Notes under the pieces: model-generated
What the model saw: the letters and a program-made list of their open reading frames with translations, nothing else
Databases searched by the model: none
What the model was told of the DNA's origin: nothing
Shown: piece after piece, positions 120 to 15,300 of the stretch
How positions within the stretch are numbered: position 1 is the first letter of the stretch
Layout: each line of letters starts with the position of its first letter
Assembly (NCBI GenBank): GCA_014384545.1
Contig: JACNFQ010000081.1
Coordinates: 1 to 16,961, forward strand
Direction: 5' to 3'
DNA length: 16,961 nt
Source of the DNA: a bacterium
Lineage (GTDB): Bacteria > UBP7 > UBA6624
Translations under genes and position numbers: made by a program

Positions 120-383
120 TCTTTGCAACCCAGATTCAAGAGTGACTTTTTTTCTGGGATCCTTTTCCCGAAGCCGTTTCTCCCTTCAACGAAGAGCGCG
201 CGGACGTCATCAACTTCTCCTTTTAGGCGGGCGACGCCCAAGGACATGCTCTCCCAGGACGGGTCCTTCGATGTGGTCTTCAACGACGCGTATGCCCAAG
301 GCACCTGATTAGGCAAGGTCTCAAAACGGTCTAGACGACCGACAAAGATCGGTGGGGGGGGGTCACATGCTATACTCTATGAT
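120..383. other. Gene debris between tRNA-Leu and cluster c1
   Basis: No intact gene is seen. Two stretches read like tails of genes that are otherwise absent. Positions 161-226 in one + frame end in ...EERADVINFSF and a stop. Positions ~228-308 in another + frame end in ...SFDVVFNDAYAQGT and a stop, with mostly G/C third positions. Neither has a plausible start of its own. They fit the idea that broken neighbour-gene ends collect at cluster borders, but the parent genes cannot be named. The end of the stretch (315-383) is the c1 promoter. Confidence 0.4.
315..383 (+). promoter_or_regulatory. c1 promoter: upstream motif, G9 tract, TATACT, leaderless start
   Basis: A motif ending in GTCTCAAAACGGTCTAGA (to 335) recurs upstream of c4 with 19 of 21 positions matching. 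A run of nine G lies at 354-362, in the spacer where a -35/-10 promoter is sensitive to length. TATACT at 371-376 is followed by seven bases and then ATG at 384, so transcription should start at or next to the start codon. No Shine-Dalgarno sequence precedes the ATG. The motif-to-start distance is identical to that of c4 (49 nt). Confidence 0.6.
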
Positions 384-3366: not shown

Positions 3367-4566
3367 ATGGGGTGCGTGGACAACAGTTATGATTTTGTGG
3401 TTGTGGGTGGGGGATTGGTGGGGCTTTCTACCGCCCGAGCACTCCTCACTCGCCACCCCACCTCCAAGGTGGCTCTCCTTGAAAAAGAGGACGGCGTCGC
3501 CAAACACCAGTCGGGGAGGAACTCGGGCGTGGTCCATTCAGGCATCTACTATGCTCCAGGCTCTCAAAAAGCCCAACTGACAGAAAAGGGCAAGGTTGCA
3601 TTGGCATCGTATTGTCGCGAGAAGAAGATCCCTTGGCGAACTGTAGGAAAACTGATTATCGCCACAACGCCTGAAGAGGTGCCGGCGCTGGAGGGACTAT
3701 ACCAGAGAGCCAAAGAAGACCCTGTAGGCGAAGTGCACCTCTTGGATGGGAGCGGGATTCGTGGGGTGGAGCCCAAGGGGTCAGGGTTGGTCGCTCTCCA
3801 CTTGCCCGATAGCGCCATTACCGAATACACTCGGATTGCTAAGGCGATCGCTACGGACTTGTGGGAAGCTGGCGCAACCGTTCTCTACAACCACGAACTA
3901 CACAATGCCACTCTCAAGAAAGGGGAATGGCACTTGGAGACATCCCAGGGGGTCGTGAACGGAGCCTACTTTCTGAACACCGCTGGACTCCAAGCCGATA
4001 GGTTGGCGTGGGTGGCGGGCGCCAACCCCTCCGTTCGCATCTTCCCATTCCGCGGGGAGTATTGGCGTCTCAAGCCCGAATCAAGCATCACCAAAGCGCT
4101 TCTCTATCCTGCACCAAACCTAGGAATGCCTTTCTTGGGCGTTCATTTCACACCAGAGATGGATGGTGGAACCCTTCTTGGACCCAACGCCCTACTCGCC
4201 TGGCACCGCGAAGGATACGAAAGGGGAATGGTAGAGAACCGCCAGATTGTGGATGCCCTAAGTTGGACAGGGTTCTGGTGTTTGGGTGGGCGCCATCTAC
4301 GGGCAGGGTGGGAGGAGTGGAAGCGCTCTCGCACGGCTCAAGCCGTTGCGCATTCAGCCCGACGACTCGTTCCATCTCTCCCCGACAACGCCCTCCAAAG
4401 GGCACTTTCGGGGGTGCGTGCCCAAGCGGTAGACCAAGATGGAAACCTCGTGAATGACTTTGTGGTGGAGGAGTCCCCTCAGGCGCTCCACCTTCTGAAC
4501 GCCCCCAGTCCCGCCGCCACGGCGTGCCTTGCTATCGGGGAGTACATCGCTAAGATGCTTCCATAA
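3367..4566 (+). CDS. lhgO: L-2-hydroxyglutarate oxidase/dehydrogenase (FAD)
   Basis: A flavoenzyme of the DAO/FAD-dependent oxidoreductase fold that oxidises L-2-hydroxyglutarate to 2-oxoglutarate and passes electrons to oxygen or quinones. The 399 residues match LhgO (YgaF). The N-terminal Rossmann dinucleotide motif VVVGGGLVGLSTA (residues ~11-23), the family signature HQSGRNSGVVHSGIYY (~47-62), and the C-terminal GVRAQAVDQDGNLVNDF and LLNAPSPAATACLAIGEYIA segments are all present. There is no strong Shine-Dalgarno before ATG 3367. Its last ~18 codons recur as a remnant at 7353-7425, just before the metallophosphoesterase gene, so the two genes were probably adjacent and overlapping before c2/c3 came between them. 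A general FAD oxidoreductase is the only real alternative. Confidence 0.87.
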   Translation: MGCVDNSYDFVVVGGGLVGLSTARALLTRHPTSKVALLEKEDGVAKHQSGRNSGVVHSGIYYAPGSQKAQLTEKGKVALASYCREKKIPWRTVGKLIIATTPEEVPALEGLYQRAKEDPVGEVHLLDGSGIRGVEPKGSGLVALHLPDSAITEYTRIAKAIATDLWEAGATVLYNHELHNATLKKGEWHLETSQGVVNGAYFLNTAGLQADRLAWVAGANPSVRIFPFRGEYWRLKPESSITKALLYPAPNLGMPFLGVHFTPEMDGGTLLGPNALLAWHREGYERGMVENRQIVDALSWTGFWCLGGRHLRAGWEEWKRSRTAQAVAHSARRLVPSLPDNALQRALSGVRAQAVDQDGNLVNDFVVEESPQALHLLNAPSPAATACLAIGEYIAKMLP

Positions 4567-4757
4567 AGACTTGCCTTCAGCGATATCCATACCGACTGTG
4601 AAGGCGGCTGGGTACCTTCTGATTTTTGCTTTTCGGGGCGGGCTGACCACTCCTACGGGATTGAGGTGGCGAAGCAGAGGGCTGCACCCAGAGATGTATT
4701 ACGGAGGGGTTGAAGGCGCGTGAGAAGGACTCTTTGGCGGAGGAGATAAGAGCCTAG
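4567..4757 (+). pseudogene. 5' stub of a metallophosphoesterase gene plus unrelated coding debris
   Basis: Directly after the lhgO stop, 4573-4597 are identical over 25 bases to the 5' end of the intact metallophosphoesterase gene at 7434-7458, encoding AFSDIHTD, the first metal-binding motif. The copy has lost its start codon (GTG replaced, with a 2-nt length change) and diverges after ~4605, so it is a dead fragment of about 12 codons. Beyond it, 4707-4757 in one + frame reads GLKAREKDSLAEEIRA and a stop, which looks like another gene tail. No complete gene is seen. This is the left copy of the duplicated lhgO/phosphoesterase junction. Confidence 0.75.
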
Positions 4758-5179
4758 TGCCCGGATGGAGGGGCTGGGTGCACGAAGATCGACCAACCAC
4801 CCTCGCGCCATTCAGTCGTTACTTCGGCTCCGCCTGTCTGCATCGCCAAGATTCTGAACGCGTCCTCCACTGAGCCAACGAAATCAATCGCTACGGCGTG
4901 CTGTGGCATCGTTTCGCAGACATGCTCCCCCATCTCCTCTCCCCTCTCTGCCTGATAGGTGCAGGAGTAGAAGAGGTCAGGATCCACCCAGAGGGATACA
5001 TCGGCAGAATGAGCCACAGATTGCATTGCGCCCAAGAGGGGCATCGCCTCCTTGATTGTGAATCTCATGCTTGGGAGGGGGATTGGTGGCTGTTCGGCAT
5101 CCGTGCTGTTTTGACCAGCTAAACCTCCTAAGAAAATCAAGCAAAGAACAGGGATCAATCCCATCCAAGTCTCTTTCAT
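4754..5179 (-). CDS. c2 signal-peptide protein with STN-like repeats
   Basis: About 141 residues from ATG 5179, chosen because GGGAGG lies five bases upstream and the N-terminus MKETWMGLIPVLCLIFLGGLAG is then a clean signal peptide. The mature part resembles the short N-terminal domain of secretins and TonB receptors (STN): MRFTIKEAMPLLGAMQSVAHSADVSLWVDP and later VAIDFVGSVEDAFRILAMQTGGAEV...WSIFV. The second segment resembles the C-terminal part of the upstream Cys-rich product (VSVDFYGTKKDIIAALAAATGG). It has only two or three cysteines. No secretin or barrel domain follows, so it is not a secretin. It lies 25 nt after the Cys-rich gene and is probably cotranscribed with it. Confidence 0.66.
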   Translation of the reverse strand: MKETWMGLIPVLCLIFLGGLAGQNSTDAEQPPIPLPSMRFTIKEAMPLLGAMQSVAHSADVSLWVDPDLFYSCTYQAERGEEMGEHVCETMPQHAVAIDFVGSVEDAFRILAMQTGGAEVTTEWREGGWSIFVHPAPPSGH

Positions 5180-5204
5180 AAATCCTCCCAATCTCCCCAA
5201 CGAC

Positions 5205-5564
5205 CTACAGTTGAATCCCAAGAGAGGAGAGTAGGGTAAAGAGAAGAACATCCGACTCTTGAACTGTGATGACGGTCTCTGAATCGCTGGAAAAGGAACC
5301 TCCGGTTGCAGCGGCTAGGGCGGCGATAATGTCCTTCTTCGTGCCATAGAAGTCCACAGATACTTTGTGGTTCCCAAAGGTGGAGCATAGCACTGGAAAG
5401 GGGTCGGGAACGGGACCACACCAGCAGTGCGTGGCACAGCCGGTTTGAAGACAGATGATACAGACCGCCCCTCCCACACCTTCACATGTTATTGAGCATC
5501 TGCAGGATGAACCAGCGTCGCAATTGTAGGTTGTTGAGATCTCAAAAGCCTCCCTAGAAATCAT
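5205..5564 (-). CDS. c2 Cys-rich protein with C-terminal STN-like segment
   Basis: From ATG 5564 the product is ~119 residues with ten cysteines in the first ~65 (SSCRC, CIIC, CATHCWC), followed by a Cys-free segment VSVDFYGTKKDIIAALAAATGGSF...ETVITV resembling an STN-type fold. It is the first gene of c2 and lies 25 nt before its partner. The start is unsure. TATAAT on the minus strand (5568-5563) overlaps the ATG, so it cannot be both promoter and start; an in-frame ATG at 5603 is the alternative, and the open frame extends to 5798. No signal peptide is seen from either start, unlike c1, c3 and c4, so the 5' end may be damaged. Function unknown. Confidence 0.5.
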   Translation of the reverse strand: MISREAFEISTTYNCDAGSSCRCSITCEGVGGAVCIICLQTGCATHCWCGPVPDPFPVLCSTFGNHKVSVDFYGTKKDIIAALAAATGGSFSSDSETVITVQESDVLLFTLLSSLGIQL

Positions 5565-5710
5565 TATACACACATTTGCGTACAGGTGGCATCTCTGGAG
5601 CATGGAGACCACATCCCCGTTGGGGGAGGCGGAGACGCGCGAGTGGGCGGCGAACGGTGGCGGCGGTTCGCGTTGGGGGCGACACTGTCCCGCCCCCTCT
5701 TTCTTGGGCG

Positions 5711-5923
5711 GTGATCGCGGGGGAAGGAAAGGGATCCGAAGGCCTCCCCCGGGCATCGTTGCTGGTGGTGGGCTGGACGATCTTGGTGTGGCAGTCACCG
5801 CATCTCGCCTACGCCATCACCTGGATCGGGGTCGCTGCCCTCGTCCTGGCCTATGGAGTTTGGGGAGTGACTAGGAGGATTCGGGGGAAGCGAGGCTCTG
5901 TTCCTGTGCTGAAAGAAATGTGA
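5711..5923 (+). CDS. Possible small membrane protein or 3' remnant
   Basis: The frame has two hydrophobic segments, LLVVGWTILVW and YAITWIGVAALVLAYGVWGV, then a basic tail RRIRGKRGS, which is a convincing membrane hairpin. GTG 5711 is a possible start without a Shine-Dalgarno; the frame is open upstream to 5576. Local GC is higher than in c2 or c3, more like the dinB region, so this could be the tail of a lost housekeeping membrane protein left between c2 and c3. It is not a member of the Cys-rich set. Confidence 0.35.
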   Translation: MIAGEGKGSEGLPRASLLVVGWTILVWQSPHLAYAITWIGVAALVLAYGVWGVTRRIRGKRGSVPVLKEM

Positions 5924-5968
5924 GGTTTGAATACCTCTTGTGGCGAAGAACTCCCCCAGATGATTTGC

Positions 5969-5995
5969 GGGGGGGGCGTACCCTATAATGCTGGC
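5969..5995 (+). promoter_or_regulatory. c3 promoter: G8 tract, TATAAT, leaderless start
   Basis: Eight G (5969-5976), seven bases, a perfect TATAAT (5984-5989), six bases, then GTG at 5996. There is no Shine-Dalgarno. The order and spacing match the c1 and c4 promoters, but the upstream GTCTCAA...GTCTAGA motif of those two is absent here. Confidence 0.6.
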
Positions 5996-6313
5996 GTGCA
6001 GACGATAATCCTGACCTTTTCCCTTTCGTTACTATTGGTGGGTCCTGCACCTATGCAAGACGATCCAACCACGCCCGGTGCAGCGATCTGTCCTGCCCAG
6101 GTGCTCGCTGGAGGTAGTTGCGGCTGTTGCCAAATCAACAAGTTTGAGAGTGCGGGGATAAACAGTTTCACCCTGTGGTATGACTGCACGGCCCATGAAG
6201 GGTGGTGGGGGTGGGAGGATTCCATCCCACCAGGGCATGCAACGTGTGGCTTGCAGATCAGCACGAGGAATGTTGGATTCCAATACTTCAAGGATCCAAG
6301 TGGGATGTTGTGA
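5996..6313 (+). CDS. c3 Cys-rich secreted protein (frame-broken near its 3' end)
   Basis: From GTG 5996, six bases after TATAAT, the product starts MQTIILTFSLSLLLVGPAP, a signal peptide. The mature part carries SCGCC and further cysteines and is rich in Trp (EGWWGWED). The frame stops at 6313, but another + frame continues with WDVVNCSEMG...RCTSCN to a stop at 6414, only 23 nt before the next gene, and that Cys-rich end resembles the ends of the c1 and c4 proteins. I infer a frame break at about 6285-6312. It is the first gene of c3 and probably cotranscribed with the lipoprotein gene that follows. No family is recognised. Confidence 0.6.
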   Translation: MQTIILTFSLSLLLVGPAPMQDDPTTPGAAICPAQVLAGGSCGCCQINKFESAGINSFTLWYDCTAHEGWWGWEDSIPPGHATCGLQISTRNVGFQYFKDPSGML

Positions 6314-6414
6314 ATTGCTCCGAGATGGGACAGCAAATCAGCCAAGTCGAGGCTTGTGCCACCAGCGAGTTCGAGGATCCTGGGGACGATCCCCGTTGCA
6401 CATCCTGCAATTGA
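6290..6414 (+). pseudogene. c3 Cys-rich gene, out-of-frame C-terminal tail
   Basis: This frame reads KWDVVNCSEMGQQ and continues to DPRCTSCN and a stop at 6412-6414. It adds about four cysteines and ends like the other Cys-rich products. It has no start or Shine-Dalgarno of its own, so it is best read as the displaced 3' end of the gene starting at 5996. A single-base correction in 6285-6312 would join the two. Confidence 0.5.
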
Positions 6415-6437
6415 GCCTAACGGGGAGGAGACGAAAA

Positions 6438-7154
6438 ATGGACAAGAACAGACATCGAAGAGCGGAAGGGCTTGGGAGAAAGGGACTTTTGTTGCTTACG
6501 ACTTTGCTCCTCGCTTCCTGCGGAGTAGAGCCCTTCGTGTTCAGCATCGCGGTTGAGCCGGGTGGTGCGGTAAGCATGCACTGGGTAGAAAAGGGGGTCA
6601 TCAACCCCAGCCTCAATGACGTTTGCGCCACGCCATCCCACCACGACAGGCCCGTCGCCTACTTCGAATCCCGCGGTATCGATGGCACCTTTTCCTCCTG
6701 GGCTGAGGAGAAGGGTCCTTCACAAGAAGAGGGGCTCATCAACTGCTGGGTCCACGGTAAGATCGACTACGCCACAACGGAGGATTGGTCGCGGCACTTT
6801 GCGGAGATCGAGGCGGACTTCCTCTCCGACTGGCATCTGGATACCGAGGACCTCTTCATACCGCCCCTGCCGGGATCCTTGGAGAGATCGGTGGGGGAGG
6901 ACGGCGCCCTGACCGTCGTGGTGGGGACAGAGACGATGAAGACCCTTCTGGAATTGACCCGCTTGAAGGGTTCCCTGATGGAGATTCGCTTGAGGCTCCC
7001 CTGTGCCGTTGAGAGCCTCACGCCGGGTCTTGGCGTCCAGGAGGAGGAAGGGAAGGTCGCGGTGTGGAGGTTCAGGGTGTCTCCAGGGCAACCGGTGGAG
7101 GTCACGGCCCGGACAGCCCCCGGGTGCGAAGTGCCTCCTGTGCCGCCCGCCTAG
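6438..7154 (+). CDS. c3 predicted lipoprotein
   Basis: 238 residues from ATG 6438, chosen because GGGGAGGAG lies just upstream and because the N-terminus then reads KGLLLLTTLLLASC, a lipoprotein signal with lipobox LASC (Cys 28). The mature protein has few cysteines and ends with a Pro-rich tail (CEVPPVPPA). A segment near residues 145-220 (LTVVVGTETMKTLLELTRLKGSLMEIRL, then KVAVWRFRVSPGQPVEVTAR) suggests a beta-rich domain but matches no family I can name. It does not share the NLW[ND]PY blocks of the c1 and c4 lipoproteins, so the pair layout is conserved but this partner is a different protein. Confidence 0.78.
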   Translation: MDKNRHRRAEGLGRKGLLLLTTLLLASCGVEPFVFSIAVEPGGAVSMHWVEKGVINPSLNDVCATPSHHDRPVAYFESRGIDGTFSSWAEEKGPSQEEGLINCWVHGKIDYATTEDWSRHFAEIEADFLSDWHLDTEDLFIPPLPGSLERSVGEDGALTVVVGTETMKTLLELTRLKGSLMEIRLRLPCAVESLTPGLGVQEEEGKVAVWRFRVSPGQPVEVTARTAPGCEVPPVPPA

Positions 7155-7352
7155 CCGTCCACCAGCCCCTCTCCACTCCCGTGCTCTGCGCGCATCTCCC
7201 CTTCCGAAGAGCCCACGTCGGAGACCCGCGCCCAGCAAGACCTGTTCTAGCCCCCGGGCTAGGGGGGGTGGTGGAGGGGTCCATGTCTTTAGTATACAAG
7301 CAGTGGCGGGTCGGTAGGAGGGGATGGCGCACTGGAAGGAGAGCGTGAACCC
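7155..7352. other. Gene-free stretch after c3 with hairpin and G7 tract
   Basis: No gene is seen. CTAGCC/GGCTAG (within 7247-7262) forms a short stem, possibly ending c3 transcription, and G7 (7262-7268) follows at once. TATACA occurs at 7293-7298 but no convincing gene follows. The stretch leads into the lhgO remnant. Confidence 0.35.
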
Positions 7353-7425
7353 CGGGGAGCCCAGCGGATACGCTGGCGCAACGTGCCTTCCCATCGGGGA
7401 GCACACCGCTAGGATGCTCCTGTGA
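7353..7425 (+). pseudogene. 3' remnant of an lhgO-like gene
   Basis: In frame, this reads ATCLPIGEHTARMLL and stops at TGA 7423-7425, matching the end of the intact lhgO-like protein (ATACLAIGEYIAKMLP). Homology fades upstream of ~7353. The stop overlaps the GTG of the metallophosphoesterase gene (GTGA at 7422-7425), which shows how the two genes were joined before c2/c3 separated them. It is the right-hand copy of the duplicated junction. Confidence 0.82.
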
Positions 7426-8024
7426 AGATCCTCGCCTTCAGCGATATCCATACCGACTTTGAGGGCGCGGAACGCCTAGCTGAACTCTCAGGAGAGGCGG
7501 ATGTCGTGGTGGGGGCGGGGGACTTCTGCGCCGCCCACCACGGGCTGGAGGAGATGATCAAAGTGCTGGGAGCGATAGAGACACCCTCGCTGGTCGTCCC
7601 CGGCAATAACGAGACCGACACCGCCCTTCGTGCCGCCACGGCCTCCTATTGGCCCTCGGCCAGAGTACTCCATGGCGAGGGGACGGTCTTGGGCGGCGTG
7701 CCGTTCTTCGGATTGGGTGGCGGCATCCCCACCACGCCTTGGGGCTGGAGCCACGACTTGACAGAGTATGAGGCAGAGGCGTTGCTGGAGGAGGCGCCCG
7801 CTGGGGGTGTTCTCATCCTCCACAGCCCTCCCAAGGGGTATGCGGACGGGCGTGGCGGGGGGCATTTCGGGAGCGAGGCCATCCTCGCCGCCATCCAGAG
7901 GCATACGCCCCAGTGGGCGTTCTGCGGGCATATCCACGAGTGCTGGGGAGAGGAGCATCTCATCGGGGCCACCCATCTCCTCAACTGCGGCCCGTCGGGC
8001 CGCTTTGTCACATTGGGCGAATAG
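7422..8024 (+). CDS. Calcineurin-like metallophosphoesterase
   Basis: A 200-residue dinuclear-metal phosphoesterase. The metal-ligand set is complete: DIH (D8, H10), GAGD (D34), GNN (N62), H134 in LILHSPP, and CGHIH (H170, H172). The last motif is followed by an NCGPSGRF segment typical of small cytoplasmic members of the family. The substrate cannot be told from sequence. GTG 7422 is chosen because the DxH motif then lies at residues 8-10 and because it overlaps the lhgO remnant stop, an ancestral coupling. The gene heads a same-strand block with dinB and the SRAP gene and has higher GC than gltA and lhgO. Confidence 0.88.
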   Translation: MKILAFSDIHTDFEGAERLAELSGEADVVVGAGDFCAAHHGLEEMIKVLGAIETPSLVVPGNNETDTALRAATASYWPSARVLHGEGTVLGGVPFFGLGGGIPTTPWGWSHDLTEYEAEALLEEAPAGGVLILHSPPKGYADGRGGGHFGSEAILAAIQRHTPQWAFCGHIHECWGEEHLIGATHLLNCGPSGRFVTLGE

Positions 8025-8162
8025 ACCGGCTTACCATAAAATCTCGGAGGTTGACTCCTCATCTTCGTAGCAGAGAGAGGAGCATTCCCTGCGCTGTCAA
8101 TCGGTTCGCTGGATATGCGTACGAATCTTTACAAGAACGGTGATATCATCGGGGGGAACAAA

Positions 8163-9347
8163 ATGGGAACAAACGCCCGACAGATCCTCCATGTGGACAT
8201 GGACGCCTTCTTTGCCTCCATCGAGCAGCGGGAGAACCCCGTTCTGCGCGGTAAACCCGTCCTTGTGGGTGGGGGCCGCCATCGGGGCGTGGTGGCGGCG
8301 GCATCCTACGAAGCGCGTCCCTTTGGCATCCGGAGCGGGATGCCCACCGCCCATGCCCTCCGGCTTTGCCGGCACGCCATCCTCATCCGCACCCCCAGTT
8401 GCTCCTATGCGGGGGTGGCCCAGGAGATTCGGGGGGTGTTCCACACCTTCACCCCGCGGATAGAGAGCACCTCCCTCGACGAAGCGTATCTGGATATGAC
8501 CGGGACCCAACGTCTTTTCGGCGCGGTGGAGGGAAGCGCCCAGCGGCTCAAGGAGAGCGTCCGCCGCGAGACAGGGCTGGCGTGCACGGTGGGCATTGGC
8601 CCCAACAGGCTCTTGGCCAAGATGGCCTCCAATCTCGCAAAACCGGATGGACTCCTTGCCCTTCACTACGCTTCAGCCAAAGTGCGGTTTGCCCCCCTTG
8701 CCCTAGAAGCCCTCCATGGGGTAGGGCCAGCGATGGCGAACCGTCTCAGGAGGATGGGGCTGGATACCCTAGGGGATTTGATGGAGGTGCCCCAGCGGGT
8801 GCTGGAGGGGCATTTGGGTCCGGCGGGCGTCCGGCTTTGGCAGCGTGCTCAGGGGTATGGCGAAAGCCGGGTGACGGTTGCGCGCCCCTCCCAATCCATC
8901 AGCAGGGAACGGACATTCTTTGCCGACAGCGTCAAGCGGGCGGCGCTTGAGGGGGTGCTGAGCGGGCTGGCCCAAGACGTCGCGCGCGCCGCCCGCAGGA
9001 AGCTTCTCCAAGGCAACGGGGTTTGGATCAAGGTGCGATACGGCGGTGGGTTCCATACGATCACCCGTCGCCCCACGCTCTCTTTCCCCACCGCCTCCAC
9101 CCGCGCCATCCGCGCCTCCGCGCTCTCCCTCTTCGCCAAAGTGCCCTTGGGGCAGGGCATCCGCCTCTTGGGGGTGGGGATGGGTGGGTTAGGGCAGGAG
9201 GGGTTGGCACAGGGGCATCTCTTCCCCCCGAAGGGCGAGAGGAGGGAAAGCGCTCTGGACAAGGCATTGGACCGCATCGCCCAGAAGCACGGCCCCTCCG
9301 CCCTGCGATATGGCGGAACGCCCGCGCTGCGTCGCCGGGAGGGATGA
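8163..9347 (+). CDS. dinB: DNA polymerase IV (Y-family translesion polymerase)
   Basis: Low-fidelity polymerase that copies past damaged bases. From ATG 8163 it has 394 residues, normal for DinB. Catalytic carboxylates are D12 in HVDMDAFFASIE and D106-E107 in STSLDEAYLD; F17 is the likely steric-gate residue. Further elements: CTVGIGPNRLLAKMAS, the helix-hairpin-helix ALHGVGPAMANRL, a little-finger domain with SISRERTF, and a C-terminal QGHLF that fits a sliding-clamp-binding peptide. The frame is open up to ATG 8115, but homology starts after 8163; a TATCAT box (8144-8149) and G6 lie just before it. It ends 10 nt before the SRAP gene, so the two are probably cotranscribed in DNA-damage tolerance. 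Confidence 0.95.
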   Translation: MGTNARQILHVDMDAFFASIEQRENPVLRGKPVLVGGGRHRGVVAAASYEARPFGIRSGMPTAHALRLCRHAILIRTPSCSYAGVAQEIRGVFHTFTPRIESTSLDEAYLDMTGTQRLFGAVEGSAQRLKESVRRETGLACTVGIGPNRLLAKMASNLAKPDGLLALHYASAKVRFAPLALEALHGVGPAMANRLRRMGLDTLGDLMEVPQRVLEGHLGPAGVRLWQRAQGYGESRVTVARPSQSISRERTFFADSVKRAALEGVLSGLAQDVARAARRKLLQGNGVWIKVRYGGGFHTITRRPTLSFPTASTRAIRASALSLFAKVPLGQGIRLLGVGMGGLGQEGLAQGHLFPPKGERRESALDKALDRIAQKHGPSALRYGGTPALRRREG

Positions 9348-9357
9348 GAATCGGGGC

Positions 9358-10029
9358 ATGTGCGGACGGTACACCCTCTCAGCAAGCCGTGAGGCGATGA
9401 TGGAGGGGTTCAAACTCATCATCCGCCCTCAGATCCTTCACCCCCGCTACAACATCGCTCCCAGCCAGCCCGCCGCCGTTATCACTCCTTCGCCCCAAGG
9501 AGGTCGCGCCCTTGACTTCATGGTGTGGGGGCTCATCCCCTCGTGGGTAAAGGATCTCTCCCGCTCCCACGCCCCCATCAACGCGCGGAGCGAGACTGTC
9601 GCCACCAAGCCCTCTTTCCGCGCCGCGTTTCGCCACCGCCGCTGCCTCGTCCCGGCCGACGGCTTCTACGAGTGGGGATTGGCGGATGGGCGCAAGCGTC
9701 CCCATCACTTCAAACGGAGGGATGGTGCCCCCTTCGCCTTAGCTGGAATCTGGGAGAACTGGATGGATGCCTCCGGGACGGAGATCCACTCCTTCGCCAT
9801 CCTTACTACCGAGCCCAATCCCCTCGTCTCCCCCATCCACCACCGAATGCCCGTCATCCTTCCTCCTTCAAGCCACGAGCGCTGGCTGGCGCCCGATCCC
9901 CTGGAAAGCGCCGAGGCTGGCGAACTCTTCCTCCCCTTCCCAGCCCAGGAGATGACTGCCCACGCCGTCAGCGATCACGTCAACAACCCCGCCCACGACG
10001 ACCCCCTCTGCATCGCCCCCGTCCCCTAG
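9358..10029 (+). CDS. SRAP domain protein (YedK/HMCES type)
   Basis: Abasic-site sensor that forms a covalent thiazolidine link to abasic sites in single-stranded DNA and so shields them. ATG 9358 is certain because the family needs Cys2 after Met removal: the product begins MCGRYTL. The 223 residues also carry N75 in NARSET, E105 in PADGFYEW, and H161-H162 in HHRMPVIL, at nearly the same positions as in E. coli YedK, so it should be active. It lies 10 nt after dinB, which makes functional sense. Its last ~25 codons are repeated at 12276-12372 on the far side of c4. Confidence 0.95.
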   Translation: MCGRYTLSASREAMMEGFKLIIRPQILHPRYNIAPSQPAAVITPSPQGGRALDFMVWGLIPSWVKDLSRSHAPINARSETVATKPSFRAAFRHRRCLVPADGFYEWGLADGRKRPHHFKRRDGAPFALAGIWENWMDASGTEIHSFAILTTEPNPLVSPIHHRMPVILPPSSHERWLAPDPLESAEAGELFLPFPAQEMTAHAVSDHVNNPAHDDPLCIAPVP

Positions 10030-10555
10030 CCCAACTAGGTCGGGGTACTAGCGCGGGAGCAAGTTTGTCGATGTTGTGGATTTCATGAGCATCGCTGTTT
10101 CTGATGCCGGGATACCCCATATGTCCAATCTTGACATTCCAGATCGGGATCTAGGGTATGCATGGCGACCAGTAGACAACTTGGATTACGGAAACAGTTG
10201 ACGCAGCGGGGAAAGTAAGGGCGAAACTCATCTGCATTGGGAGTGAGGGAACCTATGTCTGGTGCCCATAGTATGGTGTTCTTGGATGGTAGGACCTTGG
10301 AGGAACTCTTCAACAACCGCGTGTGAAATGCGCGCATGAAGACGACCGCTTCTTTGCCTATTGTTGGTGTGTGTAGCTTTGGGCAATTCCCCCTACCCTC
10401 TCTTGCAGATCGCTTTCGCGAGGTGCCGTTCCGGTTGGATATGTCGCTTTACCCTTTGTCCTAGGCTCTGACGGTTTGAGGTCCCTCTCCGTAAGAGCTC
10501 CATCCCCTGTTCTTGATGATGAGGCAGGGCACCGGGAACCAGACCAAGTTGCCCC
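10030..10555. other. Gene-poor stretch between SRAP and c4, with a partial copy of the c4 Cys-rich gene
   Basis: I see no intact gene. An 84-residue minus-strand frame (10337-10083) and a short + frame from 10336 have no recognisable features. At 10472-10520, 49 bases match 10711-10759 inside the c4 Cys-rich gene with about seven differences, and the same residues are encoded (GLRSLSV..PSPVL vs GLRSLSV..PTPVL). This looks like the 5' part of an older, broken copy of the Cys-rich gene 239 bp upstream of the present one. Confidence 0.5.
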
Positions 10556-10624
10556 AAAGTCTCAATACGGTCTAGAAACGATCCCTAGGGGGGGGTGCCG
10601 CTTCATTGCGGTATGATTTGATTT
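10556..10624 (+). promoter_or_regulatory. c4 promoter: upstream motif, G8 tract, TATGAT, leaderless start
   Basis: A motif ending in GTCTCAATACGGTCTAGA (to 10576) matches the one before c1 at 19 of 21 positions. G8 is at 10588-10595. TATGAT (10612-10617) is followed by seven bases and GTG at 10625. The distances from motif to -10 box (36) and to the start codon (49) equal those in c1. No Shine-Dalgarno is seen. Confidence 0.62.
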
Positions 10625-11272
10625 GTGAGGTCTTTATGCGGGTTCTTGGGTCCTGTTGCGGGGTTACCTGTTCTCCTCGGGTTGATGTGGGTTCCTGGTG
10701 GTGGTCCAGCCGGTTTGAGATCCCTTTCCGTAAAAACTCCAACCCCTGTTCTTGGCGATTGCAAAGGGGGAAACGGGGGCTTGCTCCTGATTGACGCAAA
10801 CCTTGACTGTGACTGCGACCAGCCAGGTTGTGGTGGCGAGGCGTGCACAGAATACGAGTTGGAGACGGCGTCTGTCGTCGATGTGGACCCAGGTCTGATC
10901 ACCTGTTGCGAAGACATTACGGCAACCCCTTGTTCGCCTGTCATCAAGAGGATAACGCGTCAGTATATCTGTGACGGTGTGACCAACCGCGCATGTGAGG
11001 GGTTTGGTTGTGGTGCCCTTTTCCCTTACTCTGAGCAGCAGAACAACGGACAGAACCACGCTTACAGACCCCGGCGCACTATAGAAGTGACTTGGGATTG
11101 CAGCCAATGCAGAGACGGCGGCGGGTGCGGGGGGGCTTGTTGTGTTCGGATCAATCCCCAGCAGATACTTGACTGGATTGAGCAGTCGGGACTGGATGTG
11201 GGAGAGAATCCTGATCCTGCAGGCGGGGTCTGTCTAGAGAAACCATGCAATGTCTGCTGTAGTGATTCTTGA
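10625..11272 (+). CDS. c4 Cys-rich secreted protein
   Basis: 215 residues with about 21 cysteines in clusters (DCDCDQPGC, TCC, CSQC, GGCGGACC, KPCNVCC). GTG 10625 lies seven bases after TATGAT, as in c1; the N-terminus MRSLCGFLGPVAGLPVLLGLMWVPGG is a weak but plausible signal peptide. It appears to be the intact counterpart of the frame-broken c1 gene: same MRSL start, similar length, same Cys-rich C-terminal cluster, same kind of partner. G7 at 11129-11135 lies in frame and could slip. The stop TGA is directly followed by the ATG of the lipoprotein gene. No known domain is recognised; a disulfide-rich surface or extracellular protein is inferred. Confidence 0.78.
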   Translation: MRSLCGFLGPVAGLPVLLGLMWVPGGGPAGLRSLSVKTPTPVLGDCKGGNGGLLLIDANLDCDCDQPGCGGEACTEYELETASVVDVDPGLITCCEDITATPCSPVIKRITRQYICDGVTNRACEGFGCGALFPYSEQQNNGQNHAYRPRRTIEVTWDCSQCRDGGGCGGACCVRINPQQILDWIEQSGLDVGENPDPAGGVCLEKPCNVCCSDS

Positions 11273-12217
11273 ATGGAAGCAGGGAGGATTGTTCAGAATT
11301 CGGTTGGAAGTGGTATCAGGGCACTCCTTCCACTCTGCCTCCTATTTGGGTCTATCGCTCCCGGTTGCCACCGTGGGAATCGCACTGAGTCGCTAAGCCC
11401 CGTAAGAGTGAATACCGTCAGCGAGCCTGTCGCCGTCCACCAACAGTTCCACAACCCTTCGGCGGCTTATCTGACACCAGGATTCAGCGAGGAAAGTTCC
11501 AGCTCGCGGCGGATGGCTGGAGGGCTGAACGCCCTTTTCACGGCTTGGTGGGAGGTCTCCAAATGGATGCCTGCCCCCAGTGGGTCCGCTGGATTGGTAG
11601 TTACGCCCGAGTACCAGGCATTGAACCTATGGGATCCTTACACGGACCGCCCGGCGGTTTTAGGCGATGGGGAACCCCCTTCTGATGCTCCCCCGGGGAG
11701 TTTCTGGATGTGGGAAGAGCCTCATTGGAACACGCTGCTTGCACAAGGAGGTGTCAAGGCGCAGTGGTTCGCAGCCGGCACAGAGGAAGTGATGCTCAAG
11801 GTCTCATTCCGACGGTACGACAAGGCGGGCATGCATGCGGAACTGGCATGGGATTCAGGAAAGACCGCCTCTCCCAGTCTGTCTGTTCCCGAGGGGAGGC
11901 GAGAACAACTTGCGTTCTGCACCGTTCTAAGCGAACTGGTGTTCAGATCTCTCCCCCTTTGGCCCTATGAGTCTCATCTTCCCCTTGAGCGAGAAGCGGT
12001 CAAAACGATAGAGGATCTCAAGGCGTTCTGGTGGCTGTGGGACTCTGAGGCGATGTTGGCGGGAGGTCTCTTCGGAGAGGCTGACTTAGTCCTTTACGGG
12101 GACAGCCGCCTGGTGGATGTTGACTGTCAAACCGAGGAGGGTTCAATTTGGAACTGGGCCAAGACGGAAGGGGAAAGACGAATCAAGTCCGAATATGCAT
12201 TAGCCCCGCCCAAGTAG
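11273..12217 (+). CDS. c4 predicted lipoprotein, paralogue of the c1 lipoprotein
   Basis: 314 residues. The N-terminus GIRALLPLCLLFGSIAPGC is a lipoprotein-type signal, with Cys 32 the likely acylation site, though the lipobox is imperfect. Blocks shared with the c1 lipoprotein are LTPGF...RRMAGGL, PEYQALNLWDPY, IEDLKAFWWLWD, and DCQTEEGSIW. The sequence between them differs strongly, so the pair is old. ATG 11273 abuts the stop of the Cys-rich gene with no Shine-Dalgarno, which implies translational coupling. Function unknown. Confidence 0.8.
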   Translation: MEAGRIVQNSVGSGIRALLPLCLLFGSIAPGCHRGNRTESLSPVRVNTVSEPVAVHQQFHNPSAAYLTPGFSEESSSSRRMAGGLNALFTAWWEVSKWMPAPSGSAGLVVTPEYQALNLWDPYTDRPAVLGDGEPPSDAPPGSFWMWEEPHWNTLLAQGGVKAQWFAAGTEEVMLKVSFRRYDKAGMHAELAWDSGKTASPSLSVPEGRREQLAFCTVLSELVFRSLPLWPYESHLPLEREAVKTIEDLKAFWWLWDSEAMLAGGLFGEADLVLYGDSRLVDVDCQTEEGSIWNWAKTEGERRIKSEYALAPPK

Positions 12218-12538
12218 GTTCTTGAAACTCGCCAAGACCTCCAGATGAGGAAGGATGTGACAAGGCTCCACTTTCAACCTCTTCGTGTCGAACCGATGAC
12301 TACTCACATCGTCAGCGATCACGTCAACAACCCCGCCCACGACGACCCCGTCTGCGTCGCCCCCGTACTTTGATTATGTCCTGATCAGGAGGGGGCGAGC
12401 ATCCTCCACTTCAAGGGTCAGAGCGTCATAGCGGGTTCGCACAAGCCCCCTTAGTCACCCGAAGTCGCAGGGCACGCCGGGGTTCTGGCTGGTTGGGGGG
12501 GAACAGCCAGAGCGGAAGCATACCGCCACAGATGCCAC
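12218..12538. other. Right flank of c4: SRAP remnant and a hairpin
   Basis: No intact gene is seen. The SRAP remnant (12276-12372) is listed separately. TCTGGCTG (12484-12491) and CAGCCAGA (12504-12511) form a perfect 8-bp stem whose loop holds G7 (12495-12501). It lies just past the 3' end of the minus-strand c5 operon and may end its transcription, although no T tract follows. Confidence 0.4.
12276..12372 (+). pseudogene. 3' remnant of an SRAP gene
   Basis: In frame, 12290-12372 reads EPMTTHIVSDHVNNPAHDD, then PVCVAPVL and a stop, against EMTAHAVSDHVNNPAHDD, then PLCIAPVP at the end of the intact SRAP protein. Positions 12310-12349 are identical to 9966-10005 over 40 bases. Weaker similarity reaches back to ~12276 with small indels. 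It is a dead tail only, separated from the full gene by c4. Confidence 0.88.
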
Positions 12539-13123
12539 TTACGGGCTCTCGGGAATGAGGGTCGTCAGATCACGTTCGGGGAAGAGGATGGGGAGGAGGA
12601 CGCTGTTGCCCAGCGACTGAACCAGACCTGCCAGATTCGTGATACGGGGATCAGACGGCCACACGCCCGTCCAGTCCCCATCCTGCCAGCAAGACAGATT
12701 GACGAATCTATAGAGGTCTCCACGAGCCTCGATCTCCACCACCCAGAGGTGGGCCTCCCCTCCCCGCGGATCCTGGGGCAATGGTGGAAGGGTGGGCGCA
12801 GTCTCATGGAAGAACAGCCTTTGGGTGTCCATTGAAAGAAGACCTTGCCAAGGGCCAAAGGGGCTCGGATCCAAACCCTCTTCCTCCCGTGTGATCTCCT
12901 GCCGAACCACAAACCCCAAGAAACATGTGGCTTCGGAAGGGTTCGAGGGTTCCAATTCCTGCCTCTTGAGGTGGGCAATCCACTTGGACTCGCCGCGCAA
13001 TCCGTAGGGAGCCAAGTCAGCGAACTCGTCTTTCATGCCCCCCCAAACCCAAAGTAGCACCCCGACAGCAGGGATCACCAGCCAATGGAGACCAATCCTG
13101 TGACCGCGATGCCCCTTTGTCAT
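12539..13123 (-). CDS. c5 membrane-anchored protein, unit 2
   Basis: 194 residues from ATG 13123, chosen because it gives MTKGHRG, matching MTKGNRD of the paralogue in unit 1 (14210), and because its ATG would overlap the frame-corrected stop of the upstream Cys-rich gene. The N-terminal segment IGLHWLVIPAVGVLLWVW is a membrane anchor or signal. Shared blocks with the paralogue are PFGPWQGLLSMD, APTLPP, GEAHLWV, and RFVNLSCWQDGDWTGVW. A G7 run (13038-13044 on +) lies in the coding sequence just after the anchor. No known domain is recognised. It is the last gene of the c5 operon. Confidence 0.76.
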   Translation of the reverse strand: MTKGHRGHRIGLHWLVIPAVGVLLWVWGGMKDEFADLAPYGLRGESKWIAHLKRQELEPSNPSEATCFLGFVVRQEITREEEGLDPSPFGPWQGLLSMDTQRLFFHETAPTLPPLPQDPRGGEAHLWVVEIEARGDLYRFVNLSCWQDGDWTGVWPSDPRITNLAGLVQSLGNSVLLPILFPERDLTTLIPESP

Positions 13124-13481
13124 GCCGGCGGCGTGCAGACCTCCATATTGACATTGGGTACAACACAATCTTCTTGATTGAGGCAATGATCGGATCTGCA
13201 GTATTCGGGCAATCGCAATGGCTACCCTTGGTCACCGCCAACAAGTCGGTTTCCGGGATGGGGCAGGATTCGACAGTCTTATCCCCCGGGAACGCTCTGC
13301 CACAGATGACGAGATCGGCACTTCCACACTCGCTCGCCGGCGCAGAGCGTCCCACGAGTTCAACCCCCGTCGTGGTCAAGACGATTTCGCAATACAGCCC
13401 CCCCGGCCAGTGGTTGCTGCTGAATCCGGGTTGTGTGAAAATCTCACCCGTACCACAGTTCAGATAGAGGGTGGACTGCAT
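13017..13481 (-). CDS. c5 Cys-rich protein, unit 2 (3' frameshift)
   Basis: Paralogue of the unit 1 protein (14207-14614): TLYLNCGTGEIFT, NHWPGGLYC, VICGRAFPG, and GSHCDCPNTA align block by block. After IKK the frame reads a non-homologous basic tail to 13017, through the next gene. A one-base shift between 13155 and 13170 restores NVNMEVCTPPA and a stop TGA at 13122-13120, matching NINVEVCTSAP in unit 1 and recreating the ATGA overlap with the next gene. So the natural end is probably 13120 and the sequence carries a one-base deletion, unless it is a base-calling error. ATG 13481 directly follows the previous stop TAG. It lacks the short N-terminal extension of unit 1. Confidence 0.62.
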   Translation of the reverse strand: MQSTLYLNCGTGEIFTQPGFSSNHWPGGLYCEIVLTTTGVELVGRSAPASECGSADLVICGRAFPGDKTVESCPIPETDLLAVTKGSHCDCPNTADPIIASIKKIVLYPMSIWRSARRRHDKGASRSQDWSPLAGDPCCRGATLGLGGHERRVR

Positions 13482-14210
13482 CTAATCCCCCATTTGAGGG
13501 GTGAAATGGGCAAGGCGCCACAGGTCGTGTCGGAGACGCTTGTCAGTAAAGACCGCCGCGCCGATTTCTGGGTTGTCGAGGCAAGTGGCCCAATCCTCCT
13601 CATTCCTGGGCCAATCTGCCAAGCGTCCTGTTCCCACGCACCATTCTGCGATGGGGATCACCTGCATCATGGAGAAGGAATCAGAAAAAACCTTGCTGCC
13701 CGGGGAAAGAACGGGAGAAGACCTGGTGGTCCTGTACTTGTAATGGCGCCCCTCCCACAACGGGGTCCAACCCCCTTTGTCCCAACAGGTGAGGTTGACA
13801 AACTGGTTCGTTCCTCGTGGATAGTCGGTCTGCTCGATCCAGATATGGACCTCACCGTCCTTTGGATTGCTGGGCCCATTCGCCAAAGTCGGCGCATCCT
13901 CGTGGTAGACAACCCGGGTCGGATCCAAGGCCAGCAAGTCTCTCCAACTCCCAAAAGGACCCACCCCGTAACCCGACCTTGCTTGAATGATCCCCACCTG
14001 AACGGCCCGTCCGAGGCGGCAAGGGGCCATGGCTGGCGTCGGGGGTTCCATTCTCATCATGCTTGAAATCCCCGCCATCTCGGACGCATAGTGGTTTCGG
14101 ACATCGACCCACTGGCTTTCACGGCACCCCAAGAACCACAGAGGGATCAAGACAACGAGGACAGCCGGCAAATGGTCCCGAATCCACTGGTCCCGATTCC
14201 CCTTCGTCAT
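13482..14210 (-). CDS. c5 membrane-anchored or lipoprotein, unit 1
   Basis: 242 residues. The N-terminus RDHLPAVLVVLIPLWFLGC is a hydrophobic signal ending in a lipobox-like LGC (Cys ~29), so this copy may be a lipoprotein while the unit 2 copy lacks that Cys. Blocks shared with unit 2 are PFGSWRDLLALD, APTL, GEVHIWI, and QFVNLTCWDKGGWTPLW. It has a C-terminal extension of about 60 residues with WCVGTGR and RLRHDLWRLAHF that unit 2 lacks. Its ATG overlaps the previous gene's TGA (ATGA), and its own TAG abuts the next ATG. No family is recognised. Confidence 0.78.
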   Translation of the reverse strand: MTKGNRDQWIRDHLPAVLVVLIPLWFLGCRESQWVDVRNHYASEMAGISSMMRMEPPTPAMAPCRLGRAVQVGIIQARSGYGVGPFGSWRDLLALDPTRVVYHEDAPTLANGPSNPKDGEVHIWIEQTDYPRGTNQFVNLTCWDKGGWTPLWEGRHYKYRTTRSSPVLSPGSKVFSDSFSMMQVIPIAEWCVGTGRLADWPRNEEDWATCLDNPEIGAAVFTDKRLRHDLWRLAHFTPQMGD

Positions 14211-14614
14211 GGCGCGGATGTGCAGACCTCCACATTGATATTGGTCACCCTACCTGTCTTCTTGATCTGAGCGATGATGGCCGCGGCTGTATCCGGGCAA
14301 TCGCAGTGGCTCCCCATGGCGATCTCCTTGAAGGCTCCTGCTGGGGCAGGGCAGGAATCGACAATCGCAGTCCCCGGGTAGGCTCTTCCACATGTGACAA
14401 CCTCCGGGTCGCCGCACTGGGTTTGATCCGCAGACACAACCACCAATTCGCCGTTGGTGGACACGATGTCTAATGCACAGTAAGGACCCCCGTGCCAATG
14501 GCTGCTCAAGAAGCCCGCCTCAGTGAAGATCTCCCCGGAGCCACAGTGTAGGTAAAGCGTATAAGGGACGGTACCCTCCCCTACCCACATCAACAAACAA
14601 CACGCATGGGTCAT
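14207..14614 (-). CDS. c5 Cys-rich protein, unit 1
   Basis: 135 residues from ATG 14614, chosen because ATGA at 14614-14611 overlaps the stop of the upstream gene. About ten cysteines are present, with blocks TLYLHCGSGEIFT, SHWHGGPYC, VTCGRAYPG, DSCPAPAG, and MGSHCDCPDTA. No clear signal peptide is seen from this start. It appears intact and ends NINVEVCTSAP, serving as the reference for the frameshifted unit 2 copy. The following gene's ATG overlaps its stop. A disulfide-rich partner of the membrane-anchored protein is inferred; function unknown. Confidence 0.72.
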   Translation of the reverse strand: MTHACCLLMWVGEGTVPYTLYLHCGSGEIFTEAGFLSSHWHGGPYCALDIVSTNGELVVVSADQTQCGDPEVVTCGRAYPGTAIVDSCPAPAGAFKEIAMGSHCDCPDTAAAIIAQIKKTGRVTNINVEVCTSAP

Positions 14615-15150: not shown

Positions 15151-15300
15151 ATGCCCGAGACCGCCGATCTCCTCCTGCGGGACCACCCCGACCGGTGGGC
15201 GTGGGAGAAGGTCCCCGAAAGGGAACGCCTCACCTATGAGGAGGGCGTCCGCCTGATGGAGACAGGGGACCTCTTGGCTCCTCGTGCCGGTCCTAATTGA
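15151..15300 (+). pseudogene. 5' fragment of a radical SAM gene (MqnE/MqnC-like)
   Basis: 49 codons from ATG 15151. The section WEKVPERERLTYEEGVRLMETGDLLA resembles the N-terminal lead-in of futalosine-pathway radical SAM enzymes (MqnE/MqnC/CofG type), where RLT..EG..L....DLL precedes the catalytic core. The CxxxCxxC cluster is missing because the frame ends at TGA 15298-15300 after an unrelated APRAGPN. TAGGAT (15139-15144), six bases and ATG give a leaderless-type start. It sits between the 5' end of c5 and the 3' end of c6. A full copy may lie nearby outside the window. Family placement is from memory of motifs only. Confidence 0.5.

Follow-up and report, generated by a model that had tools for sequence, protein, structure and literature searches.

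The window, i.e. the whole stretch of 16,961 nucleotides from an uncultured bacterium analyzed here, carries lhgO and a gene encoding a calcineurin-like metallophosphoesterase (MPE), separated by a segment with two groups of orphan genes, c2 and c3. Sequence belonging to the junction between lhgO and MPE lies at both edges of this segment, which raises the question of how DNA could be placed between two genes and leave their junction on either side. The locus was investigated in the genome that contains it (G000; 1.39 Mb, 79% complete, 107 contigs), using a comparison set with three genomes of its phylum. Coordinates of the features are given in Table 1.

Table 1. Features of the duplicated junction, the inserts and the neighboring genes in the window
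Feature	Position	Strand	Evidence or remark
lhgO (L-2-hydroxyglutarate oxidase), live	3367..4566	+	NF008726, E 4.6e-134, above cut-off
Left junction copy	4512..4606	+	Alignment to 7371-7467, 97 columns, 80%
Dead MPE 5' stub	4567..4606	+	Start codon lost, 2-bp deletion
Inserted segment, 2764 bp	4607..7370		Separates genes adjacent in G001
Orphan protein, predicted secreted, cluster c2	4754..5251	-	ORF without family match
Orphan Cys-rich protein, cluster c2	5205..5798	-	ORF without family match; true start uncertain
Orphan Cys-rich protein, cluster c3	5927..6313	+	ORF without family match
Orphan lipoprotein-like protein, cluster c3	6438..7154	+	ORF; contigs C4 and C12 contain related sequence
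Right junction copy	7371..7467	+	Alignment to 4512-4606
Dead lhgO 3' tail	7371..7425	+	Ends at GTGA overlap
MPE, live	7422..8024	+	PF00149, PF12850, PF14582; GC3 0.79
dinB-type Y-family polymerase	8115..9347	+	PF00817; GC3 0.77; in high-GC3 block
HMCES/SRAP gene, live	9358..10029	+	PF02586, E 2.7e-73
Second scar, left copy (HMCES 3' end)	9951..10022	+	92% to 12295-12366
Second insert (cluster c4)	10030..12294		Cys-rich 10625-11272, lipoprotein 11273-12217
Second scar, right copy, dead HMCES tail	12295..12366	+	Alignment; own stop directly after
Dead dnaE2/imuC 3' tail	12374..12483	-	Convergent with dead HMCES tail; live gene in contig C95
Dead 5' piece of mqnC/mqnE-like radical SAM gene	15151..15279	+	62% nt, 65% aa to L081:1414-2577(-)

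The lhgO-MPE junction is directly duplicated around the insert

Positions 4512-4606 and 7371-7467 were found to be a single direct duplication spanning the lhgO-MPE junction, with 78 of 97 columns identical in a gapped alignment (80.4%), a score of 116 against a best of 44 among 200 shuffles, and a BLASTN E-value of 1.5e-17. An earlier note on this DNA had proposed such a duplication on both sides of c2 and c3, of 80-100 bp and thus far longer than a normal transposon target duplication, which the alignment bears out; the 25-base identity that it reported (4573-4597 and 7434-7458) is exact and forms the core of the repeat. The duplicated sequence comprises about 55 terminal bases of lhgO and about 46 initial bases of MPE. 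Since it crosses the gene boundary, running from the end of lhgO through the stop codon to the start of MPE, the similarity is more than a conserved protein motif. Matches to the junction in the available genome (1.39 Mb, 79% complete) were confined to these two places, and no third copy was found in the spacers of the window or of contigs C89 and C95.

The arrangement described in the note, with an intact lhgO and a dead MPE stub on the left and a dead lhgO tail and an intact MPE on the right, was seen in the sequence. The left lhgO reading frame is open up to a TAA at 4566, and the MPE copy that follows has its GTG start converted to ATA and carries a 2-bp deletion (38 of 43 columns identical to live MPE). 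On the right, the lhgO tail retains a 4-nt GTGA overlap (7422-7425) with the complete MPE, and it differs from live lhgO by 3 synonymous and 7 non-synonymous changes, a neutral pattern. Because the junction lies on both sides, neither host gene was left without a complete copy. Profile and nucleotide tests gave nothing above shuffles for MPE beyond the left repeat (4607-4760) or for lhgO beyond the right repeat (7155-7370). A possible extension of the left stub to an SDFC...H..G motif (4607-4690) was suggestive by eye, but was rejected as it did not exceed shuffles.

The uninterrupted pair that the note had suggested seeking in relatives was found in G001, a genome of the same family and another genus, where homologues of lhgO (37% identical; locus L004, 326-1504) and MPE (51% identical; L004, 1501-2094) share an ATGA overlap. 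Hence lhgO and MPE were most likely adjacent before the interruption, and their adjacency is most likely the ancestral state. A scan of genome contigs for lhgO matched only an Actinomarina lhgO, with no MPE adjoining it. For HMCES and dnaE2 the comparison showed no more than co-location, in G003, with both genes and a dinB within 6 kb; the three genes plausibly once belonged together.

Equivalent scars at other genes

The last 72 bases of HMCES are repeated, at 92% identity, on the far side of a Cys-rich/lipoprotein pair, and a tail of about 101 bases of cstA is found again beyond two such pairs in contigs C4 and C89, which are joined by an exact 55-nt overlap, as expected for neighboring contigs of an assembly graph. 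The stop codon is no more than about 13 bp away from the insertion at both HMCES and cstA, with the gene end restored. The genome thus holds three independent cases with duplications of 97 (lhgO-MPE), 72 (HMCES) and about 101 bp (cstA). In contig C95 a 58-base internal piece of dnaE2 lies beyond another cluster pair, a case that is not a simple insertion. In the same contig (L033, about 6070-6235), the 15-mer GGAGCGCCGACATCC is located at the 3' end of a tRNA-like sequence and occurs a second time some 140 bases downstream, immediately ahead of the dnaE2 piece; this repeat could be attachment-site-like.

The distribution of gene fragments was assessed by comparing 521 kb, about a third of the genome, with the genome's own ORFs. 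All six out-of-frame gene fragments were confined to the five contigs with clusters or a cluster remnant, which amount to 59 kb (P 2e-6, a value to be taken as a guide only, because the scan was partial and the contigs were partly picked for their clusters). The other contigs also gave out-of-frame matches, which were attributed to a dispersed repeat, overlaps at contig ends, a tRNA, tandem repeats, or spurious frames that overlap within gene families. The dispersed repeat is an intergenic family of sequences about 75-90% alike, in tandem and inverted copies and without an Rfam match (L031 2888-3052, L042 3721-3938, L047 9146-9417, L054 3649-3985, L073 413-636).

Content of the inserts

Seven Cys-rich/lipoprotein pairs of one type are present in G000, and c2, c3, c5 and c6 represent further types. 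Their products are predicted to be secreted, judging from signal or lipobox-like N-termini. Cluster proteins gave no convincing match in Pfam, PHROGs or PADLOC. The c4 lipoprotein was modeled (pLDDT 71), and the predicted structure matched nothing in the PDB at E 0.001; no member of the lipoprotein family was detected in G001 or G002. No recombinase was detected in the inserts by Pfam, PHROGs or PADLOC, and no common terminal or edge sequence was found among them.

The window also holds a tandem duplication formed by c5 and c6 (12669-13472 and 13765-14560, 61% identical), and 49 bases from the beginning of the Cys-rich gene of c4 (10711-10759) recur 239 bases upstream (10472-10520) at 86%. The tandem Cys-rich genes of L032 (191-763 and 1986-2486) encode about 60 near-identical N-terminal residues followed by divergent sequence, a pattern resembling families diversified by partial gene conversion. 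Dead 3' tails of lipoprotein genes of types c4 and c3 occur in intergenic or antisense position (L034 8978-9286 and L031 4795-4974). Upstream of several Cys-rich genes lies the conserved motif GTCTCAAaACGGTCTAGA, with GATC and then some 8-9 consecutive G after it (window 314-363 and 10555-10596; L032 120-175 and 1913-1934). With up to 3 mismatches allowed, the genome contains 8 matches, against 0 for the reversed control. This motif looks like a promoter, and phase-variable expression could result from the G run. A shared promoter-like motif, GTCTCAAAACGGTCTAGA, was first read as an element end; it is also found upstream of unrelated genes, and is therefore more likely a promoter.

Composition of the region and origin of the copies

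MPE, dinB, HMCES and dnaE2 have GC3 values of 0.76-0.80, as compared to 0.62 for both lhgO and citrate synthase, and about 0.5-0.6 for most of the sampled genes of G000. The difference between lhgO and MPE (0.62 vs 0.79) was significant (P 3e-5); no such difference exists in G001 (0.28 and 0.27). Live dnaE2/imuC (L033, i.e. contig C95, 8025-11024) is a mosaic, with a GC3 of 0.60 up to codon 238 and 0.81 over the remaining three quarters of the gene, a switch exceeding all 500 permutations. Given these seams, at lhgO/MPE and inside dnaE2, homologous recombination has probably imported or replaced part of the region.

When compared with their live counterparts, neither the fragments of lhgO, HMCES and cstA nor the internal dnaE2 piece had a significant excess of synonymous changes, and their differences fit drifting dead copies, as expected. 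The dead dnaE2 tail, which is lower in GC3 than the live gene, differs from it by 24 changes of which 12 are synonymous (P 0.008), and the mqnC/E-like piece (GC3 0.83-0.86) has 25 synonymous changes among 47 (P 2e-5). Synonymous excess in both pieces indicates that they derive from diverged functional genes.

Possible origins of the duplicated junction

The explanation that we favour, with a probability approaching one half, is that the insert was placed at the lhgO-MPE boundary with duplication of a target of about 97 bp on both sides, as at HMCES and cstA. Starting from adjacent lhgO and MPE genes with overlapping ends, a segment of about 2.8 kb with two orphan secreted-protein gene groups would have inserted about 40 bases 3' of the lhgO stop, so that some 97 bp around the break ended up flanking it on each side; the incomplete pieces left behind, the MPE start before the insert and the lhgO tail after it, would then have decayed as dead copies. 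Equivalent scars would have formed at the 3' ends of HMCES (72 bp) and cstA (about 101 bp). We infer that the duplication was made in one step together with the insertion, the simplest and likely route being break repair, with the overlapping ends of a staggered break filled in or copied during capture of paralogous (ectopic) cluster DNA. The target-insert-target layout, the sharp edges, the similar lengths and the lack of a recombinase match this explanation. The uninterrupted pair in G001, the neutral differences in the lhgO, HMCES and cstA fragments and the restriction of gene fragments to cluster contigs also speak for it. Against it stand the GC3 seams at lhgO/MPE and in dnaE2, at which imported DNA would meet resident DNA, the synonymous excess of the dead dnaE2 tail, the lack of a common terminal sequence in the inserts, and the C95 case with its 58-base dnaE2 piece. 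No Ku gene was found in G000 (79% complete), and classical NHEJ is therefore unsupported. A doubtful extension of the favoured explanation is that the Cys-rich/lipoprotein pair is a mobile unit without its own transposase, copied into gene junctions via breaks filled in over 70-100 bases; such fill-in would let the neighboring genes survive, and the duplicated junction would sign each insertion.

In view of the composition seams, additive recombination with foreign homologous DNA stays the main and a serious rival, albeit on the unlikely side. A block from a high-GC relative, comprising the lhgO tail, MPE, dinB, HMCES and dnaE2, would have entered by homology, either in circular form or as a linear molecule with one end illegitimately joined, so that both source copies of the junction stayed and cluster DNA lay at the seam. 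The high GC3 of MPE, dinB and HMCES (0.77-0.80) relative to lhgO, citrate synthase and the sampled genes, the abrupt change at codon 238 of dnaE2 and the high-GC mqnC/E piece all favour import, which also better explains the dead dnaE2 tail with its lower GC3 and synonymous-rich differences. However, the inserted clusters themselves have a moderate GC3 (about 0.55-0.64), the lhgO, HMCES and cstA fragments lack a significant synonymous excess, the MPE starts differ at just 3 of 37 aligned bases, and import alone does not explain the cstA case. The earlier note had proposed integration of a circle carrying the junction; its interpretation is partly supported, in that the seams favour some foreign homologous recombination, but no sign of a circle was seen and the lhgO, HMCES and cstA fragments are neutral.

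The note's other proposal, a tandem duplication that trapped the cluster, is disfavoured and appears improbable. In this scenario junction and cluster would have been duplicated as one unit, and most of one copy would later have been deleted, which left short edges of the neighboring genes. Clusters are tandemly duplicated elsewhere (c1-l1/c2-l2 of contig C89, 62% over 1.7 kb; c5/c6 of the window), and the cstA tail sits between further paralogous pairs; but a cluster would have to be at the junction beforehand and the remaining MPE and lhgO be lost precisely, and it is the lack of longer MPE or lhgO remnants outside the repeats of about 97 bp, and the similar lengths in three cases, that argue against this scenario. 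Integrative elements that enter gene 3' ends, of the e14/icd type, leave the gene end duplicated on either side of the insert. Site-specific integration of an element of this kind, bringing a replacement 3' end, would suit the position of the HMCES and cstA insertions near the stop codon and the restored gene ends, yet it is very unlikely here, given that the inserts contain no integrase or phage protein, that the targets differ and share no attachment core, and that the lhgO repeat straddles two genes. Still less credible is an assembly or binning artefact, to which the metagenome-type assembly in 107 contigs and the high-GC3 genes might point: exact identity between the copies extends over at most 25 bp (lhgO) or 40 bp (HMCES), and the window holds no repeated 55-mer, the assembly overlap observed being 55, which makes misassembly unlikely.

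Relation to known rearrangements and significance

Insertion with long target duplication was reported for restriction-modification genes from H. pylori strains (Nobusato et al. 2000, Gene 259:99), as cited and illustrated in PMC1643837, and is also mentioned in PMC3154945 and PMC4978471. As in those cases, the genes studied here lie between direct repeats far longer than transposon target duplications, an uninterrupted relative reveals the insertion, and the event is recurrent within one genome with one kind of cargo. Unlike those cases, the cargo consists of orphan Cys-rich/lipoprotein pairs, the lineage is a sparsely sampled phylum, the copies are 8-20% diverged, and compositional seams accompany the inserts. 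In homology-facilitated illegitimate recombination (PMC3240628), foreign DNA can be joined by homology at one end and illegitimately at the other, which could likewise leave both junction copies; here, by contrast, no donor is known and the cluster between the copies would not be explained by that route. The lhgO-MPE case thus appears to match a known rearrangement class, insertion with long target duplication, with several candidates for the exact mechanism.

The movement of small gene sets without a transposase or integrase is poorly understood in bacterial genomes. The scars described here are of a rare kind; they surround members of a single gene family, in a lineage unrelated to H. pylori, and have diverged to differing degrees, which may allow fill-in of staggered breaks, import by homology and amplification to be distinguished by strain comparison. 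They suggest how clusters of secreted-protein genes could spread without a recognisable transposase, by insertions that can leave both flanking genes intact.
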